Source of the DNA: Rhodospirillaceae bacterium
GTDB lineage: Bacteria > Pseudomonadota > Alphaproteobacteria > Thalassobaculales > Thalassobaculaceae
Direction: 5' to 3'
Length of the DNA: 35,659 nt
NCBI GenBank assembly: GCA_002708305.1
Contig: PANE01000009.1
Coordinates: 1-35,659, forward strand
In this document: positions 8,260 through 35,265 of the stretch, piece by piece
Layout: each line of letters opens with the position of its first letter
Numbering within the stretch: the stretch's first letter is position 1
Position numbers and translations under genes: made by a program
The notes under the pieces: model-generated
What the model saw: only the letters and a program-made list of their open reading frames with translations
Databases searched by the model: none
What the model was told of the DNA's origin: nothing

Positions 8260-8340
8260 TTTACCTTTAAAAAATTCAAAACAACGTCAGGCACGCACAC
8301 GTGCATGCTTTAACTTAATCTATTTCAAAGGGTAAATTAA

Positions 8341-8799
8341 ATGCGAACCTACTCGGCCAAACCGAGCGAGATTGAAAAAAAATGGTGGATCATCGATGCT
8401 GATGGGCTTGTCCTTGGTCGTCTCGCTACAGTCGTCGCTATGTATTTACGTGGCAAGCACAAAACTACGTTTACACCTCACATGGATTGCGGGGATAACA
8501 TTGTAATCGTTAACGCAGAGAAAGTCCGACTAACTGGTTCAAAAAGAACTGCGAAGACGTATTACTGGCATACTGGATATCCCGGTGGTATTAAATCTCG
8601 AACTGCGGACAAAATTCTGGATGGGGAGTACCCCGAACGTGTTATTCAAAAGGCAGTTCAAAGAATGATTAACCGCGGACCTCTTGGTAGAGTTCAGATG
8701 GGGAATTTAAAAGTTTACGGCGGATCTGAACACCCGCATGAAGCTCAACAACCAGAAGTTTTGGACGTTGGTGCAATGAATTCGAAGAATAAGAGGTAG
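8341..8799 (+). CDS. rplM: 50S ribosomal protein L13
   Basis: A 152-residue protein matching L13 along its length: the N-terminal [17 protein letters not shown], the central [12 protein letters not shown], and the C-terminal MLxxGPLGR-like region (here [20 protein letters not shown]). L13 is an early-assembly 23S rRNA-binding protein of the large subunit. The ATG at 8341 has AAAGGG 8 bases upstream. It is directly followed by rpsI, whose ribosome site (AAGAGG, 8791-8796) lies inside the last codons of rplM, so the two are translated from one mRNA. The order rplM-rpsI is nearly universal in bacteria. Confidence 0.99.
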
Positions 8800-8802
8800 G
8801 TT

Positions 8803-9333
8803 ATGACTGATGAAACCGAAGTAGTTACCCAAGCACCTGTAACGACAGAGGCCCCAGAAGCTGATGTGGTAACTGGATTAGAGGCACTTGGAGCGTTAAA
8901 AGAAGAACAGGAGGTTATTGTTGTAAGGGAGCCAAAGTTAGACGCTCATGGTCGAGCTTACGCAACAGGGAAAAGAAAGAATGCGATAGCTAGGGTATGG
9001 TTAAAACCAGGTGCTGGTCGTATCTCAGTGAATGGACGAGAGGTTAACACCTACTTTGCTCGTCCCGTTTTAAGAATGCTTCTAGGGCAGCCTTTCGAGG
9101 TTACTGAAAGAGTAGATTCATATGATGTTGTTTGCACTGTCACTGGTGGTGGTTTATCAGGTCAGGCCGGCGCAGTTAGGCATGGTATATCCAAGGCTTT
9201 AACCTACTCGGAGCCTACACTTCGAACTGTCCTTAAGAAGGGCGGATTCCTAACGCGAGACCCAAGAGTGGTTGAGCGTAAGAAATACGGCAGGGCGAAG
9301 GCCCGTAGGAGTTTTCAATTCTCAAAGCGTTAG
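8803..9333 (+). CDS. rpsI: 30S ribosomal protein S9, N-terminally extended
   Basis: 176 residues. The last 130 or so match S9: [39 protein letters not shown], and the basic tail ending SFQFSKR, which reaches toward the P-site tRNA in ribosomes. About 45 extra N-terminal residues are acidic and Thr/Glu/Val-rich and look disordered; similar extensions are typical of alphaproteobacterial S9. The ATG follows the rplM stop after 3 bases. A strong intrinsic terminator 30 bases beyond the stop closes the operon. Confidence 0.98.
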
Positions 9334-22557: not shown

Positions 22558-22633
22558 GACCCCTTCGTCTAGAGGCCTAGGACACTGCCCTTTCACGGCG
22601 GCAACACGGGTTCGAATCCCGTAGGGGTCGCCA
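22558..22633 (+). tRNA. tRNA-Glu (anticodon UUC), CCA encoded
   Basis: A complete 76-base cloverleaf. The acceptor GACCCCT (22558-22564) pairs with AGGGGTC (22623-22629). GTCTAGAGGCCTAGGAC forms the D-arm. The anticodon stem CTGCC/GGCGG encloses the loop CTTTCAC, with anticodon TTC. ACGGGTTCGAATCCCGT forms the T-arm. The discriminator is G and CCA is encoded (22631-22633). The layout closely resembles bacterial tRNA-Glu. I see no duplicated 3' end in the window, so it is not marked as an attachment site. Confidence 0.97.
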
Positions 22634-28827: not shown

Positions 28828-30423
28828 ATGGTAAAAAAAATATCTGCACAACAGTTGCATAAGCTAATAGAGGATTTGGAGGAGCTTGCTCTTATTGATA
28901 CAAGAGAGGAGGGGGACTTTGGGCTCGCTCACATTTTATTGTGTGCTAATATTTCTTTGAGTCATTTAGAAATAAAAATCCCCGACCTTGTTCCTCGAAA
29001 ATCAACACGTATTGTTCTTTGTGATGGTGATGGGGTTAATACCCATTTGGCAGCTGAAAAATTAGAGTATTTTGGCTATTCTGATGTGAGTATTCTTGAC
29101 GGTGGCGTCACTGCATGGGGAGATGCAGGCCTAGAAATTTTTAGTGGTCTCAATGTTCCTAGCAAAGCCTTCGGGGAATTCGTAGAACATACCTATGATA
29201 CTCCCTCTGTATCAGCCGAAGAACTGAAGGTAATGATGGACAAAAAAGAAGATATGATCGTCCTAGACTCTAGACCGATGGCAGAGTTTAACGTCATGAA
29301 TATACCAACGGGTATCGATATGCCAGGAGCCGAACTGGTTCATAGGGTACAAGAAACAGGAATTTCTACCGATACTACAATCGTGGTGAACTGTGCAGGA
29401 AGAACGCGCAGTATAATTGGTGCGCAATCCCTTATAAACGCGGGGGTTCCTAATAAAGTTGTTGCTTTGAGAAATGGTACTATGGGTTGGCATTTAGCCG
29501 GGTTTAAATTGGAGCACGGGATGGATCGGCCTCCTCCTTCTGTCTCTAATGCTGGTCATAAAATAGCTATGGAAAGGGCGTTATATGCCGCTAAGCGATT
29601 TGGAGTAACCACTATAAACTCAAAAAAATTGACTGCCTGGAGGGAAGAGCAGGCGGAAAGAACGTTATGTATTTTAGATGTACGAACATTAGAAGAATTT
29701 GAAATTTCGCATATCTCAGATTCACGACATGCTCCCGGTGGGCAATTAGTTCAGGCAACAGATGTATATGTGGCCACACAGAAAGCTAGAGTTGTTCTCG
29801 TTGATGATTTAATGGTTCGTGCATTTATGACAGCAAGTTGGTTAAGACAGCTTGGTTGGTGTGAGGTTTATGTATTAGGCACTGGTTTTGACGGACAAGC
29901 TATGTCATCAGGAGAGAGAATCGCTCCATGTTTCGGTCTTGAAATGCAAAAACTTAATATAATAAGCCCCAAGGAGGCCTTGGCTGCGCAAGAAACTGGG
30001 GCAAATATGATTTGCTTGGATCGAAGCTTAAGTTGCAGAGAAAAGCATCCAAAAGGGTCATGGTTCAGTATCAGAAGTAAACTAACTAAGGATATAGTAT
30101 CCAACAATATTGATGCGCCCCTAATTTTTATATCTACTGACGTAAGGGTCTCTGCATTAGCAGCCCTAGATATGGCAAAATACAAAAATGGAGTATCGAT
30201 TGTTGAGGGTGGAGTAGCAGCTTGGGAGAAAGCTGGGCTGGCTTTAGAAGGTGGTTTAAATAATGTTTTATCCGTCCCCAACGACGTTTATTTGCGAGCA
30301 TACGATCGTGAAGATCCAATTGAGGTTGAAAAAGCAATGAATGAGTATTTAACATGGGAATTGGGACTGGTTGAACAAATTAGCCGTCCAGGAGGGACAA
30401 CTTTCGAGGTTTTCTTAGAATAA
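28828..30423 (+). CDS. Tetra-rhodanese-domain protein, two domains catalytically intact
   Basis: 531 residues read as four tandem rhodanese domains, at about 1-105, 125-232, 255-360 and 375-475, each with the start (LIDTRE, VLDSRP, ILDVRT, CLDRS) and end (DGGVTAW, NGTMGWHLAG, degenerate, EGGVAAW) landmarks. Domain 1 has Cys65 (VLCDGDG) and domain 2 Cys189 in a good loop (NCAGRTRS). In domains 3 and 4 the catalytic Cys is replaced by Val325 and Ser436. Only the first two can carry a persulfide. The final 50 residues form an acidic tail (EVEKAMNEYLTWE). No signal peptide is seen, so it is cytosolic. Likely roles are sulfur transfer or thiosulfate/cyanide metabolism, inferred only. It is convergent with modC. 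Confidence 0.9.
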   Translation: MVKKISAQQLHKLIEDLEELALIDTREEGDFGLAHILLCANISLSHLEIKIPDLVPRKSTRIVLCDGDGVNTHLAAEKLEYFGYSDVSILDGGVTAWGDAGLEIFSGLNVPSKAFGEFVEHTYDTPSVSAEELKVMMDKKEDMIVLDSRPMAEFNVMNIPTGIDMPGAELVHRVQETGISTDTTIVVNCAGRTRSIIGAQSLINAGVPNKVVALRNGTMGWHLAGFKLEHGMDRPPPSVSNAGHKIAMERALYAAKRFGVTTINSKKLTAWREEQAERTLCILDVRTLEEFEISHISDSRHAPGGQLVQATDVYVATQKARVVLVDDLMVRAFMTASWLRQLGWCEVYVLGTGFDGQAMSSGERIAPCFGLEMQKLNIISPKEALAAQETGANMICLDRSLSCREKHPKGSWFSIRSKLTKDIVSNNIDAPLIFISTDVRVSALAALDMAKYKNGVSIVEGGVAAWEKAGLALEGGLNNVLSVPNDVYLRAYDREDPIEVEKAMNEYLTWELGLVEQISRPGGTTFEVFLE

Positions 30424-30447
30424 ATCTCTACATATATCGGCAGGCTA

Positions 30448-31521
30448 TTATCCTAAAACTTCAATGGCTGTCGACTTGATTAATGCGAAAACCTTTTGCC
30501 CGGGTGTTAATTGTAGGTTTGAGACACTTCGTCGTGTCAATCGAGACCAGATGATTGTGTCTTTAACCTTTAACTGTAGATCCATGAAATCCAAGTCATT
30601 TTTTTCAATAGAATGGATTCTCGTTTCAAAGATGTTAGCGATACTTATATCGCTTGGCTGTTTAAGAGCTATGGCTATATCTTGCGCTCGAATTTTGGCT
30701 CTTACTTTTGTTCCTATAGGTTTATCTATAAACTTAGTGGAAATACTACCTCCATTAAATTTTAAATTGCTTATCCTTGCCTCAGTTTCATGATTATCGA
30801 CGGTGCAGGTTAGAAATGAACTTTTTACCCCAATGCCAAAATATGAAGAATTATTACCACCATTAATGACTTCACTAACAGGGCCTTGTGCAACGATTTC
30901 TCCATTATTGAGTAAAATTAGTGTGTCAGCGAGATGCATAATTTCATCTATTTGGTGAGAAACATATATGATTGGTATTTTTAAAATATCCTTTAAAGTT
31001 GATATGTACGGTAATAATTCTTGTTTACGAGCTACATCCAAGGCGGCGAGGGGTTCATCCATAAGTAATATTTTGGGGGAACAAAGAAGTGCTCGTCCAA
31101 TACCGACCCTCTGACGCTCTCCCCCAGATAATGAAAGTGGCTTGCGATCGAGAAATTTTGCTAATCCCAAAATATTAATTACATCTTCTTTTGCTGGAAT
31201 TGAGATGTTTGTTGATTTCATTCCATAAAAAAGATTTTCCTGAACCGTCATATGAGGGAAAAGTCGTCCCTCCTGAAAAACATAACCAAGGCCTCTCTTG
31301 CTAGTAGGGACGTTAATACCTTTATCTGAATCAAAAAGTGTATGACCGTTGATCCTAATAGTGCCAAGATCGGGTTTAACTAGGCCGCAGATAGCATTGA
31401 TAGTTGTCGTCTTTCCAGAACCCGATTGGCCAAACAACGCTGTTACCCCTTTTTCCGGCATTTGGAAGTCGACAGTAAGCTTGAAATCGCTGCGTTCAAC
31501 TATGAATTTTGCTTCAATCAT
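30448..31521 (-). CDS. modC: Molybdate ABC transporter ATP-binding protein
   Basis: 357 residues. The ATPase domain has Walker A GQSGSGKTT (31-39), the Q-loop YVFQEGRLFPH, signature LSGGERQR (131-138), MDEPLAALD (154-162) and the switch His in YVSHQ. After residue 235 come an insert and a C-terminal TOBE/Mop-like domain (about 290-357), where molybdate or tungstate binding regulates ModC-type proteins. The gene overlaps modB by 4 bases (ATGA), showing translational coupling. The order modA-modB-modC and the ModB and ModA partners make the assignment firm; sulfate or tungstate specificity is a minor alternative. Confidence 0.96.
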   Translation of the reverse strand: MIEAKFIVERSDFKLTVDFQMPEKGVTALFGQSGSGKTTTINAICGLVKPDLGTIRINGHTLFDSDKGINVPTSKRGLGYVFQEGRLFPHMTVQENLFYGMKSTNISIPAKEDVINILGLAKFLDRKPLSLSGGERQRVGIGRALLCSPKILLMDEPLAALDVARKQELLPYISTLKDILKIPIIYVSHQIDEIMHLADTLILLNNGEIVAQGPVSEVINGGNNSSYFGIGVKSSFLTCTVDNHETEARISNLKFNGGSISTKFIDKPIGTKVRAKIRAQDIAIALKQPSDISIANIFETRIHSIEKNDLDFMDLQLKVKDTIIWSRLTRRSVSNLQLTPGQKVFALIKSTAIEVLG

Positions 31522-32228
31522 CGAGCGCCCCCATTATTTACTCCAAGCCGTTTGTTCACTCGACGTGCTAAAACATCTGACGCGATGAGCGCGCTAAAAG
31601 CCAATACAAGTGAAATCAACAGCAGTCGAATAGCAGGTGTTTGATCTCCAGGTAATTGTGTAAAATTATATAGTGCCAAAGGAAGAGTTTGAGTTTCTCC
31701 AGGGATGTTTGAAACAAACGTAATCGTTGCACCAAATTCACCTAAACTGCGCGCGAATGCTAAGATTGTACCTGCTATTATTCCTGGTAGAGATAAGGGT
31801 AGTGTAATGGTAAGTAATATTCTAAGCCTGTTCGCCCCGAGAGTACTGGCAGCAGATTCCAATCCCTGATCTATTGAATCTATGGATAATCGGACGGCTC
31901 TTACCATAAGCGGAAAAGCCATTACAGCTGACGCTATCGCGGCTCCTGTCCATGAAAAAGCTACAGTGATGTTAAATGTTTCGTATAACCATTCCCCGAT
32001 TACCCCCCGTTTCCCAAGTAATATAAGTAATAGATAGCCAACGACTACTGGGGGCATCACAAGGGGTAGGTGCACTATTCCATCTAACAACCATTTACCA
32101 GGAAACGAGGTTCTAGATAATATAAATGCAACCAAAATTCCGGTTGGTAAACATATGGCTATACTGAAAAGAGCTACTTTTAAAGTTAGGTATAAAGCAT
32201 CAATCTCTACTGGTGTAAAATTAAGCAA
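31518..32228 (-). CDS. modB: Molybdate ABC transporter permease
   Basis: A 236-residue inner-membrane permease with about five to six helices. The cytoplasmic EAA loop (ASTLGANRLRILLTITLPL, about residues 135-153) couples to ModC, and GEFGATITFVSNIPGETQTLPLAL is the conserved ModB/CysT-family segment. The length is standard for ModB. It starts 3 bases after the modA stop and overlaps modC by 4. With its partners it would import molybdate, needed for molybdenum-cofactor enzymes such as nitrate reductase, formate dehydrogenase or xanthine-oxidase family enzymes; none of these is in the window. Confidence 0.96.
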   Translation of the reverse strand: MLNFTPVEIDALYLTLKVALFSIAICLPTGILVAFILSRTSFPGKWLLDGIVHLPLVMPPVVVGYLLLILLGKRGVIGEWLYETFNITVAFSWTGAAIASAVMAFPLMVRAVRLSIDSIDQGLESAASTLGANRLRILLTITLPLSLPGIIAGTILAFARSLGEFGATITFVSNIPGETQTLPLALYNFTQLPGDQTPAIRLLLISLVLAFSALIASDVLARRVNKRLGVNNGGAR

Positions 32229-32231
32229 TAG

Positions 32232-33005
32232 TTAATCCGATTCAAATCCAAATTGTGAGAAAATTTTCTGACCCTTTGGAGAGCTAAAAAATGAAAAGAG
32301 TTGCTTCGCCTCTGGATTATTCTCAAAATTTTTATGAAGACCTATAGGGTATAGAATTCTATCATGTGCATGTTCAGGAATTTTCCATTCTAAATGTACA
32401 TATGGTGAGGCTCTTGCGTCTGTTTGATAGACAAACCCAAGGGGAGTTTCTCCTCGCTCAACCAATGCCAGAGCGGCTCTGACGTTTGCTGATTGTGCCA
32501 ATTTATCTCTGATCAAGGGCCAAATATTAAGTGTTTTCATGGCTTGTTGAGAATAGATCCCAGCGGGGACAGCAGATACCTCAGCAACTGCTAATCGTTC
32601 ATCTTGTAAGACCCGAATAATATCGTCCCCAGAGGAGATTTTTAAATCGACCGAAAAGTCTTTTGAGGAAATGACAACTAAACGATTAGAAAAGGCAGTT
32701 TTGTGGCGCGCTATAAGCCCCATATTTACAATTTCTTTCATCCAAGCTTTATTTGCCGATAAAAAGAGGGCAGCAGGTGCTCCGTCGATAATTTGCCGGG
32801 CCAGTGCGGAAGTGGCACCGTAAACTGCTGCGACTTGAACATTTTTTTGAATTGGAAATTGTTTTATTAATGCATCTACAGCATTTCTGGTGCTCGCGGC
32901 CGCATAGATGTATAATTTGGTGTCTGCGCTGCACACGGATGATAATAGTAAACCGAGACAACTTAACATTATGATTGATCTTATTTTTACAGTGTAAAAG
33001 CGCAA
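32232..33005 (-). CDS. modA: Molybdate-binding periplasmic protein
   Basis: 257 residues. The N-terminus (MRFYTVKIRSIIMLSCLGLLLSSVCSA) is a clear signal peptide with basic, hydrophobic and small-residue cleavage parts. The mature protein begins near ADTKLYIYAAAST, whose serine is one of the oxyanion ligands of ModA, followed by YGATSALARQI, another ligand segment, and GAPAALFLSANKAWM. The start is TTG at 33005. The first ATG (32969) would remove the basic part of the signal peptide, so the TTG is better, though its ribosome site is weak. It is first gene of modABC and divergent from the PNPOx-like gene. Confidence 0.95.
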   Translation of the reverse strand: MRFYTVKIRSIIMLSCLGLLLSSVCSADTKLYIYAAASTRNAVDALIKQFPIQKNVQVAAVYGATSALARQIIDGAPAALFLSANKAWMKEIVNMGLIARHKTAFSNRLVVISSKDFSVDLKISSGDDIIRVLQDERLAVAEVSAVPAGIYSQQAMKTLNIWPLIRDKLAQSANVRAALALVERGETPLGFVYQTDARASPYVHLEWKIPEHAHDRILYPIGLHKNFENNPEAKQLFSFFSSPKGQKIFSQFGFESD

Positions 33006-33021
33006 AATATAATCCGGGAGT

Positions 33022-33049
33022 TTGGTGACAGAAGATATCTTACTATAAT
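33022..33049 (+). promoter_or_regulatory. Probable promoter of the PNPOx-like gene
   Basis: TTGGTG (33022-33027) and TATAAT (33044-33049) are separated by 16 bases. The predicted start site would leave a leader of roughly 30 bases with a strong GAAGGGGGAG ribosome site (33071-33080). The same 79-base interval must carry the modA promoter on the other strand; no convincing ModE box (CGTTATATA-type half-sites) is seen. Confidence 0.5.
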
Positions 33050-33084
33050 AATCATTAAGAAGGATATATGGAAGGGGGAGCTAA

Positions 33085-33690
33085 ATGAGTTTTTACCATG
33101 AAGGCAATAGAGAGCTTCAAGATCGTTTTGATGGCCGAAATTTGGCAAATAGTCTCGAAAAAAATCGAAACCATCATGTGTTTACGGATAATGATTGCAA
33201 ATTAATAGAAGAGGCATCTTTCTTTTTCTTAGCAACAACTTCTGGTGAGATTGTGGATTGTTCATTTAAGGGCGGGGTTCCTGGTTTCATAAAAATTACT
33301 GGGCCAAATAGTCTCTCTTTCCCGGACTACGACGGTAACTCCATGTATCGTAGTCTTGGTAATATTTTAGTAAATAATAATGTAGGTTTATTATTTATAA
33401 ACTTTAATTCCTCAGCAGAAAGAATGAGAATCAATGGCGTAGCTAGTATTGATTATGACCTTGAAAGGCTACAAGAGTTCGAAGGGGCTAAACTTATCGT
33501 AGACGTGGTGGCTACTAATATTTTCCCTAATTGCCCTAGATATATACCAGAGGTGCAGAATTTGAAAATATCCGATCATGTGCCTCGAGCAGGCCACATT
33601 CCACCAGAAGCGGAGTGGAAGTTTAGAGACTATGCTAAGCCCCATCTTCCAGAATCAGAGCGAAAAAGACTGTTTGGCAAAGAAACCTAA
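33085..33690 (+). CDS. Pyridoxamine-5'-phosphate-oxidase-fold flavin-binding protein
   Basis: A 201-residue split-barrel protein of the PNPOx-like family. SFFFLATTSGE (about 48-58) opens the barrel, followed by FIKITGPNSLSFPDYDGNSMYRSLGN, the FMN-phosphate-binding loop and Asn/Ser-rich segment, and VGLLFINF and RMRINGVASI strands. Relatives reduce or oxidise small molecules with FMN or F420; the cytosol is likely. The ATG has a very strong ribosome site. It lies between modA (divergent) and the ModE-like gene (convergent). Its TAA overlaps the ModE-like TAG on the other strand by 2 bases (the shared stretch reads CTAA). Placement in the molybdate locus hints at a link, but no molybdenum-related motif is visible. 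Confidence 0.87.
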   Translation: MSFYHEGNRELQDRFDGRNLANSLEKNRNHHVFTDNDCKLIEEASFFFLATTSGEIVDCSFKGGVPGFIKITGPNSLSFPDYDGNSMYRSLGNILVNNNVGLLFINFNSSAERMRINGVASIDYDLERLQEFEGAKLIVDVVATNIFPNCPRYIPEVQNLKISDHVPRAGHIPPEAEWKFRDYAKPHLPESERKRLFGKET

Positions 33691-34034
33691 TTTGTTGAGC
33701 TTCCAAGATGCTGCTCAAACCAGACAAGGTCATCTGTTATACTTTCAGCAGCTATTTTTTCTATCAAACCATAGCGTCTGAGCATCTCTTTCCCTAATGG
33801 ACTCAAAAATGTTCCACCACCACCTTTTCCTCCTGAAGATTTTGAAACTATCTCCGCATTAAAATCGTTGTTGAGGCTGTCGATTAATCTCCAAGCTTTT
33901 CTATATGACATTCCCATCTCTTTTGCTGCTGCCGATATTGATCCAGTTGTCGCAATCTTTTCTAATAGTAGTGCTTTACCTGGGCCAATCGCCACAGCGT
34001 CCCCTATCAATATTCGGATCCTTGGCGAAGTCAT
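33687..34034 (-). CDS. Single-domain ModE-like winged-helix regulator
   Basis: About 115 residues from ATG 34034, with GGAG upstream; an in-frame TTG at 34085 would overlap the neighbouring gene and is unlikely. The sequence matches the N-terminal DNA-binding domain of ModE: PGKALLLEKIATTGSISAAAKEMGMSYRKAWRLIDSLN is the winged helix-turn-helix, and SSGGKGGGGTFLSPLGKEML the wing. The two molybdate-binding TOBE domains of full-length ModE are missing, so it cannot sense molybdate in the usual way unless through another protein. It is near modABC (convergent with the PNPOx-like gene), which supports a role in their control. It starts 37 bases after the stop of the metC-like gene. Confidence 0.86.
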   Translation of the reverse strand: MTSPRIRILIGDAVAIGPGKALLLEKIATTGSISAAAKEMGMSYRKAWRLIDSLNNDFNAEIVSKSSGGKGGGGTFLSPLGKEMLRRYGLIEKIAAESITDDLVWFEQHLGSSTN

Positions 34035-34071
34035 ATAGTTAAAGCTCCGGTGACTTAGTGGATTTGATTTC

Positions 34072-35265
34072 TCAAATAGACGCAATTGCTGTAAGTCGAT
34101 CTAGACCTGCACCTAGATCGGTTATTAGATCATCTATATCCTCCAAGCCTGCATGTACTCGAAGTAGTTGGCCTTTCTCATCCCAGCTAGTTGCCGTTCG
34201 GTAATCTTGTGGACCTGCTGGAATTATTAAACTTTCAAATCCACCCCAGCTAGCCCCCATACCATATAGCTCTAGCCCATCTAACATCGCCGCGAGTGCA
34301 GAGCGTGAATAGCCATCATTTAAAACAAATGAAAATAATCCACTTGCACCTTTAAAGTCTCTTTTCCAAATATGATAACCTGGATCTGATTTTAACGCGG
34401 GATGCAGAACTCTTTTAACTTCCGGACGACCTTCCAGCCAAGTTGCCAACTTAATGCCATTTTCTTGATTTTGCTCCATTCTAACAGCCATAGTCCGCAG
34501 GCCTCGTTGAGCTAAATACAAATCATCAGGCCCAGAGACATTTCCATGCATTTGCGCCATTTCCCGGGTCGCATCGGACCAGTCTTGGTTTGCTACAATC
34601 ACCCCCATCATAACATCGGAATGTCCACAAATATATTTAGTAACCGCCTCAATAACAATATCGACCCCTTTGTTGAAAGCATCAAAATAGAGCGCGCTAG
34701 CCCAAGTGTTATCCATTAAAACAACTGCGCCAATTTCATGGGCAGCATCAGCGATCGCGGGAATATCTGAGACTTCAAAAGTTTGAGATCCAGGGGCTTC
34801 TGTATAAACAGCAACCGTATTGTCATTAAATAAAGTTTTAATATCCGAGCCAATCAGCGGATCGAAAAAAGTTGTTTCGATACCAAACTTATCTAAAAAA
34901 CCATTAGCAAAGTTTCTAGCAGGTCCGTAAACATTATCAGTCATCAAAATATGGTCGCCGGGTTTAACACAAGCTAATATTCCGTTGGTCACTGCCGCTA
35001 AACCTGAAGAAACAGCAACACAACCATCTGCCCCGTATATTGCCGCGACAGCTTCTTCGAACGATCTTGTTGTTGGAGTGCCCCTACGGCCATACCTGTA
35101 ACCGGTCCAATCTGGTTTTCGTGCAGCCTCGAAAGCATCTAATGAGGGTTGAAGAATTGTGGAAGCATGATAGACAGGAGGGTTTACTACGCCATGGTTA
35201 TCGTGTGGATAGCGACCAGCATGCACAAGGTTCGTTTTCGGTTTTTTATTTGGTTTAACTGACAT
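34072..35265 (-). CDS. metC: Cystathionine beta-lyase (Cys/Met metabolism PLP enzyme)
   Basis: A 397-residue fold-type I PLP enzyme. Key elements are the YRYGRRGTPT segment near 56-65 (phosphate and active-site Tyr from the neighbouring subunit), AVSSGLAAV (84-92), the Tyr113 ring-stacking region, Asp185 (VLMDNTWAS) and Schiff-base Lys210 in EAVTKYICGHSD. It belongs to the MetC/MetB family. The close match of VTKYICGHSDVMMG to bacterial cystathionine beta-lyases favours cleavage of cystathionine to homocysteine, pyruvate and ammonia, but gamma-synthase or lyase activity is not excluded. It is cytosolic. The start is ATG 35265. No SAM-II riboswitch is evident upstream. The hom gene elsewhere in the window supplies the same pathway. 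Confidence 0.92.
   Translation of the reverse strand: MSVKPNKKPKTNLVHAGRYPHDNHGVVNPPVYHASTILQPSLDAFEAARKPDWTGYRYGRRGTPTTRSFEEAVAAIYGADGCVAVSSGLAAVTNGILACVKPGDHILMTDNVYGPARNFANGFLDKFGIETTFFDPLIGSDIKTLFNDNTVAVYTEAPGSQTFEVSDIPAIADAAHEIGAVVLMDNTWASALYFDAFNKGVDIVIEAVTKYICGHSDVMMGVIVANQDWSDATREMAQMHGNVSGPDDLYLAQRGLRTMAVRMEQNQENGIKLATWLEGRPEVKRVLHPALKSDPGYHIWKRDFKGASGLFSFVLNDGYSRSALAAMLDGLELYGMGASWGGFESLIIPAGPQDYRTATSWDEKGQLLRVHAGLEDIDDLITDLGAGLDRLTAIASI

Follow-up and report, generated by a model that had tools for sequence, protein, structure and literature searches.

Why does a gene for a flavin-fold protein lie in reverse orientation between the molybdate regulator gene modE and the molybdate transporter genes modABC, and is it under molybdate control? 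The question arises in the window, by which we mean the whole stretch of 35,659 nucleotides analysed here, one entire contig (C15) of a 48-contig genome of 3.2 Mb that is 91.8% complete. The mod/flavoprotein locus has its nearest named relatives in single-cell genomes with the label SAR116 cluster. A first-pass annotation had described a PNPOx-like gene that diverges from modA and overlaps stops with a gene for a single-domain ModE, and had suggested that it belongs to the molybdate regulon. The features concerned are these:

22558-22630, strand not given: tRNA gene (Rfam)
28828-30423, forward strand: four-rhodanese-domain protein (Pfam PF00581), at the same position in relatives, a conserved border at the far end of the mod row
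30448-31521, reverse strand: modC, ABC ATPase with a C-terminal TOBE domain (TIGR02142, 394 bits)
30463-30645, reverse strand: TOBE domain of ModC, the sole TOBE match genome-wide
31518-32228, reverse strand: modB, molybdate permease (TIGR02141, 222 bits)
32232-33005, reverse strand: modA, molybdate-binding protein (TIGR01256, 174 bits), TTG start, start uncertain
33006-33084, no strand: divergent gap between modA and the flavoprotein gene, with a conserved TATAAT/GATAAT-like element facing the flavoprotein gene and no ModE box
33085-33690, forward strand: predicted FMN split-barrel (PNPOx-like) flavoprotein gene (profiles, fold model), antisense between modE and modA
33687-34034, reverse strand: single-domain (TOBE-less) ModE, 115 aa from the ATG at 34034 (TIGR00637), overlapping the flavoprotein stop by 4 bases
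34072-35265, reverse strand: cystathionine beta-lyase (CBL; TIGR01324, 464.7 bits), putatively first in an ancestral CBL-modE-modABC row

The layout is real: the flavoprotein gene is divergent from modA and overlaps stops with the ModE gene, the three units adjoin one another in two genera, and chance can be set aside because the arrangement is found again in 7 of 36 family genomes. ModA, ModB and ModC all exceed their NCBIfam cut-offs (62.5, 182.6 and 285 bits, respectively). The 79-base length of the gap assumes that modA starts at the TTG at 33005; a later in-frame ATG, at residue 13 of the translation, would make it 36 bases wider. The genome holds four Molybdopterin-family and seven MoCoBD_1 matches of molybdoenzyme type, and molybdenum therefore matters to the cell. 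At the Rfam gathering threshold the window yields the tRNA only, with no match near modA, which rules out a Moco riboswitch as the control of the mod genes.

By its profile scores the flavoprotein is related to the PNPOx_N and TIGR04025 families, yet it stays under both curated cut-offs, just short for Pfam PNPOx_N (27.4 bits, cut-off 28.1) and far short for TIGR04025 (80.2 bits, cut-off 170). The latter, the MSMEG_1061/DR2398 family of PPOX-type flavoproteins, is the nearest named model and aligns with residues 25-152, but the flavoprotein stands apart from it, in a subfamily of its own marked by the N-terminal motif YHEG..LQDRFDGR. An AlphaFold2 model built on an alignment of 29 sequences (mean pLDDT 89.2) is matched by Foldseek to the D. 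vulgaris FMN-binding protein, PNPOx-like proteins and HupZ (probability 1.00, E about 1e-7); the modelled fold is thus a split barrel and FMN binding is predicted. A sequence search against solved structures gave no match. The same 29-sequence alignment has 28 invariant columns, including N149, C150, R152 and Y153. In two close pairs of relatives dN is 0.056 against a dS of 0.753 and 0.130 against 1.19, and the gene is therefore under purifying selection; pairs that include the window copy are saturated at synonymous sites. We considered and rejected the possibilities that the window copy is a pseudogene, given its open frame and a dN/dS far below 1 in those two pairs, and that it is a recent foreign gene, given a neighbour-like composition (GC 0.388, GC3 0.322). 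The activity is probably an ordinary, molybdenum-independent flavin reaction. A literature search on the family returned no title about it among the matches listed, and one joining pyridoxamine-type proteins with molybdate genes returned none with the word pyridoxamine among the best 15 of 74. A search pairing single-domain ModE with TOBE turned up nothing of use among the titles listed. A molybdenum role for the flavoprotein, which had been raised as a novelty, is a candidate idea that our analysis does not show.

The regulator next to it is a ModE reduced to its DNA-binding part, as had been claimed. Depending on the start codon, the gene (33687-34085) encodes 115 to 132 aa; the ATG at 34034, giving 115 aa, is the likelier start because homologues begin with MTSPRIR-like residues. 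The protein reaches 84.1 bits with TIGR00637 (cut-off 98.5, E 5.7e-24) and has the N-terminal winged helix of ModE, judged by matches to 1b9m and 2ijl, a conserved HTH and a glycine-rich wing; of the two C-terminal Mop/TOBE domains of full-length ModE it has none, there being no TOBE in the window ModE. The E. coli ModE-modABC regulon (1b9m) thus shares with this locus modABC and a homologous DNA-binding domain (phmmer E 1e-13), but the window differs in that its ModE has no molybdate-binding domains, its genus has no box, and a flavoprotein gene sits between modE and modA. A TOBE-less ModE is not new. The closest solved relative, PDB 2ijl, a 135-aa 'Molybdenum-binding transcriptional repressor' (107 aligned residues, E 1.6e-22), is single-domain too, judged by its length in a comparison by name and alignment. 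A ModE of Desulfovibrio that adjoins modABC likewise consists of the DNA-binding domain only, and PMC545781 calls its sensing mechanism unclear. According to that paper, the operator predicted for the Desulfovibrio system is another one, CGGTCACG-N14-CGTGACCG, and close by lies an integrase-MOP fusion gene, which is not seen in the window.

Such a ModE needs a separate sensor, and our results support the first-pass annotation on this point. It had offered either the TOBE domain of ModC or a free Mop protein. In molybdate transporters, TOBE domains are able both to bind molybdate and to inhibit transport. For the window's genome we reject a free Mop sensor as unlikely and favour ModC, because the sole TOBE match there, at 91.8% completeness, is that of ModC. 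A TOBE match was found in 31 of the 36 family genomes, the best usually being that of ModC. The only short TOBE frames seen in the family are those of G016 and G032 (111 aa), together with weak ones in G025 (124 aa, 22.4 bits) and G021 (158 aa, 21.1 bits). In four genomes (G007, G010, G028 and G035) a single-domain ModE and a canonical box occur with just one TOBE match, that of modC, which argues that ModE is informed by ModC or by a different kind of sensor. This makes ModC the prime candidate, and probably the likeliest source, for the molybdate signal.

To ask how the flavoprotein gene came to lie here, we compared 36 family genomes from 12 genera, coded g1 to g12, of which g1 is that of the window. 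Mod regions were read in 32 of them, and one more region (G014) has no mod genes; G003, G014, G015 and G023 gave no ModE match and no modB match above cut-off. The usual row is CBL-modE-modA-modB-modC on one strand, with the four-domain rhodanese gene behind it on the opposite strand. We see this row in g1, g5, g6, g7, g8, g9 and g10, with parts missing at some contig ends, and in g3 it is whole in G006, whereas G017 and G025 keep CBL, modE and the rhodanese gene and have modABC elsewhere. The flanking of modE-modABC by CBL and the four-domain rhodanese gene in most family genera (window 28828-35265; L132-L151) is a conserved neighbourhood of sulfur and molybdate genes. An inverted flavoprotein gene occupies the modE-modA gap in 7 of the 36 genomes and 2 of the 12 genera: G000, G001, G002 (where modA is on a separate contig) and G004 in g1, and G010, G019 and G026 in g7. 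Every g1 genome with a mod row, four in all, retains it, each with the 4-base stop overlap. In G010 its frame contains a TAG, and decay there is indistinguishable from sequence error because modB is split as well (L132:6911-7432 and 8315-9024). The modE-modA gap of G019 has taken a second gene, for a histidine kinase (HisKA, HATPase_c; L134:1118-2602), which lies between ModE and the flavoprotein gene and abuts the latter tail to tail.

Four further family genomes carry the flavoprotein gene elsewhere: G007, and G016, G024 and G032 of g2. The three g2 copies all lie 4-7 kb from a modABC operon of a different type (L125-L127); the genes in between are an ABC transporter and an MFS gene, by family checks in one of these genomes. 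We regard this as a second, loose association of flavoprotein and mod genes, one that counts against a purely accidental reading. In G016 the flavoprotein gene directly follows a Dus (tRNA-dihydrouridine synthase) gene. A concatenated tree of the mod rows groups g1 with g8 and then with g7, and rejects g1 and g7 together without g8 (p-AU 2e-6); it is a quick tree of 23 rows that leaves out those of g2, g12 and the second type of g3. The flavoprotein tree joins g1 to g7 (0.993) and places g2 on another branch. These trees would be explained most simply by a single insertion that predates the split of g7, g1 and g8, followed by loss from g8. The sister grouping of g1 and g8, and hence the g8 loss, could be a composition artefact, as 13 of the 23 rows fail the composition check, among them those of g1 and g8, both AT-rich.

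Outside the family, the flavoprotein subfamily is scattered through the Proteobacteria in unrelated settings. A scan of 84,980 species genomes found 28 loci, 5 of them already counted in the family (G004, G001, G019, G002 and G026) and 23 others, and of 385 genomes drawn from the class, 20 had the subfamily, counting the window's own. In none of the 42 outside places (23 + 19, all on contigs of different length) does a match to ModA or ModE stand beside the flavoprotein, a count that covers the flanking DNA available and is a lower bound, several of these loci being short; the ModC matches there are generic ABC ATPases and the ModB matches are weak. The nearest neighbours are diverse, with a class-III aminotransferase in 8 of 71, a DAO oxidoreductase in 4 of 71 and others in fewer (Pfam), the 71 having been chosen from 155 genes called with a home-made gene caller. 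This tally covers the best 25 of 73 families, and a rare molybdenum-linked neighbour could escape it. In a Craurococcus-like MAG (L012:5072-6603) one gene for iron-sulfur cluster assembly (PF01883) and, judged by eye, suf-like genes precede the flavoprotein gene. Co-occurrence of the three units, proposed in the first-pass annotation as a check on regulon membership, thus fails outside the family (0/42) and is confined within it to 7 of 36 genomes, although the g2 result (3/3) leans the other way.

Whether the flavoprotein is under ModE control depends on the operator. The E. coli ModE box consensus, as quoted in PMC545781, is ATCGNTATATA-N6-TATATANCGAT, and boxes of this type adjoin modA in the family too. 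The family box, CGNTATAT-N8-ATATANCG, lies a short way upstream of modA in many genera; in a scan for CGTTATAT-N8-ATATARCG-like sites, a strong site (score of 24.5 or more) adjoins modA in 19 of the 32 genomes with a mod region, the best per-sequence scores of 30 shuffles being 20.2 to 25.5. All three g7 genomes have a canonical box in the gap between the flavoprotein gene and modA, about 30 bases from modA and about 50 from the flavoprotein start. None was found beside modA in g1 (4 genomes), g8 (5), g9 (2) or g10 (2, in one of which, G022, the contig begins near modB and the modA gap falls outside it). With a weight matrix built from 18 sites (G029, a near-copy, was left out), the G026 gap of g7 scores 29.7, which none of 300 shuffles attains. 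The best score in the window gap is -14.8, which 80% of shuffles attain (p 0.80), with no sequence there resembling a ModE box; the other g1 gaps score -13.6 (G004) and -8.1 (G001). A candidate at 34040-34120 of the window (p 0.033) has a score of -1.6, far below every true site, and we take it as chance. When up to 3 mismatches are allowed, the genome has 173 matches and a reversed control 212, so there is no excess, and none of the matches listed has fewer than 2 mismatches. Upstream of 34 flavoprotein copies only the three from g7 score 24 or more; L007 is cut by a contig edge and L026 reached 23.2. Regulon membership, as proposed in the first-pass annotation, thus becomes plausible for g7, where molybdenum may co-repress modA and the flavoprotein gene, and molybdate co-control in the window's own genus is unsupported.

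The g1 gaps are not featureless. A TATAAT/GATAAT-like element directed toward the flavoprotein gene is conserved among three of them; promoter claims are nevertheless weak, because they are based on this conservation in three gaps and a promoter scan of 32900-34200 is near expectation (5 sites, 4.1 expected). The recognition helix of ModE reads SYRKAW, in place of SYRRAW or SYGRAW, in g1 and g8; SYRRAW is kept in g9 and g10, where boxes are missing. Four genera (g1, g8, g9 and g10; L135-L146) keep a single-domain ModE without a canonical box. A changed, unrecognised operator in g1 is possible, by analogy with the Desulfovibrio ModE, which PMC545781 predicts to use another motif.

We favour, at a probability of roughly 0.6, a reading in which the flavoprotein gene was inserted beside the modA operator and captured that control region. 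The ancestral row would have been CBL-modE-modA-modB-modC with a ModE box just upstream of modA. Into it the flavoprotein gene may have been inserted once, in reverse between modE and modA and on the far side of the modA operator, before g1, g7 and g8 parted, and later lost in g8. By landing beside the operator it would have come under the control region of modA. In g7 a molybdate-responsive ModE bound at the gap box would repress both modA and the flavoprotein gene; in the window's genus the box would have decayed, leaving the flavoprotein gene with a sigma-70-like promoter of its own and probably free of molybdate control exerted via a canonical site. The ModE, having no sensor domain, would take its signal from the TOBE of ModC, the only Mop-type molybdate-binding domain found. 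That each of the four g1 genomes with a mod row retains the gene may reflect more than inertia and would then count against this reading.

It is also possible, if rather doubtful, that the gene is a passenger, inserted without any regulatory effect and kept for a selected function of its own. Its diverse neighbours elsewhere, its apparent loss in g8 and the promoter-like element of its own conserved in three g1 gaps are what one might expect of a passenger, but the 5' gap that it has in common with modA holds an operator in g7, and some coupling there is hard to avoid. We think it unlikely that the flavoprotein belongs to the molybdate regulon in the window's genus, with a ModE informed by ModC or another sensor recognising a diverged operator within the 79 bases of the gap and repressing modABC and the flavoprotein gene when molybdate is plentiful. 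The gap common to modA and the flavoprotein gene in g1, the g7 gap with its canonical box, the winged helix of ModE conserved in g1 and a genome rich in molybdoenzyme genes all speak for it, and the SYRKAW helix in g1 and g8, both without canonical boxes, would fit a changed operator. Against this, three g1 gaps hold no box-like sequence and boxes show no excess genome-wide, and g9 and g10 are boxless too, yet keep SYRRAW.

The arrangement also has the shape of a noncontiguous operon, because modE and modABC are collinear around an inverted flavoprotein gene, with no predicted terminator. Under such a scheme CBL, modE and modABC would be co-transcribed through the antisense flavoprotein gene, and the flavoprotein and mod mRNAs would regulate each other through polymerase collision and RNase III; we judge it improbable. 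The model is menE-menC-MW1733-ytkD-MW1731 of S. aureus, described in PMC7154746, which also has one inverted gene among collinear genes and no terminator detected; for the mod row, co-transcription would be a prediction. All genes of the mod row are collinear around the one inverted gene, a terminator has no space where the stops overlap by 4 bases (4 of 4 g1 genomes), and the gene that lies between ModE and the flavoprotein gene in G019 abuts the latter as well. But few terminators are to be expected from the scan in any case (0 found; shuffles average 0.9 and 2.8), modA has its own upstream operator in many genera and would not need co-transcription, and the stops in G026 are about 47 bases apart. 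Overlapping transcription at the mod row is a lead only. A more elaborate combination, with the ModC TOBE signalling to ModE (the transporter as sensor) and the antisense flavoenzyme gene of g1 and g7 making its transcript and molybdate uptake mutually exclusive or co-tuned through overlapping transcription, seems to us improbable.

Returning to insertion and capture beside the operator, the locus carries a caution, namely that a divergent gap in common is insufficient on its own for calling regulon membership. On the reading we prefer it would be a clear case of a gene that lands beside an operator and is kept in two genera, while the operator later decays in one of them. The family also has genomes in which a single-domain ModE, a canonical operator and one TOBE, that of ModC, occur together, and these make the question of how such a ModE senses molybdate directly testable.
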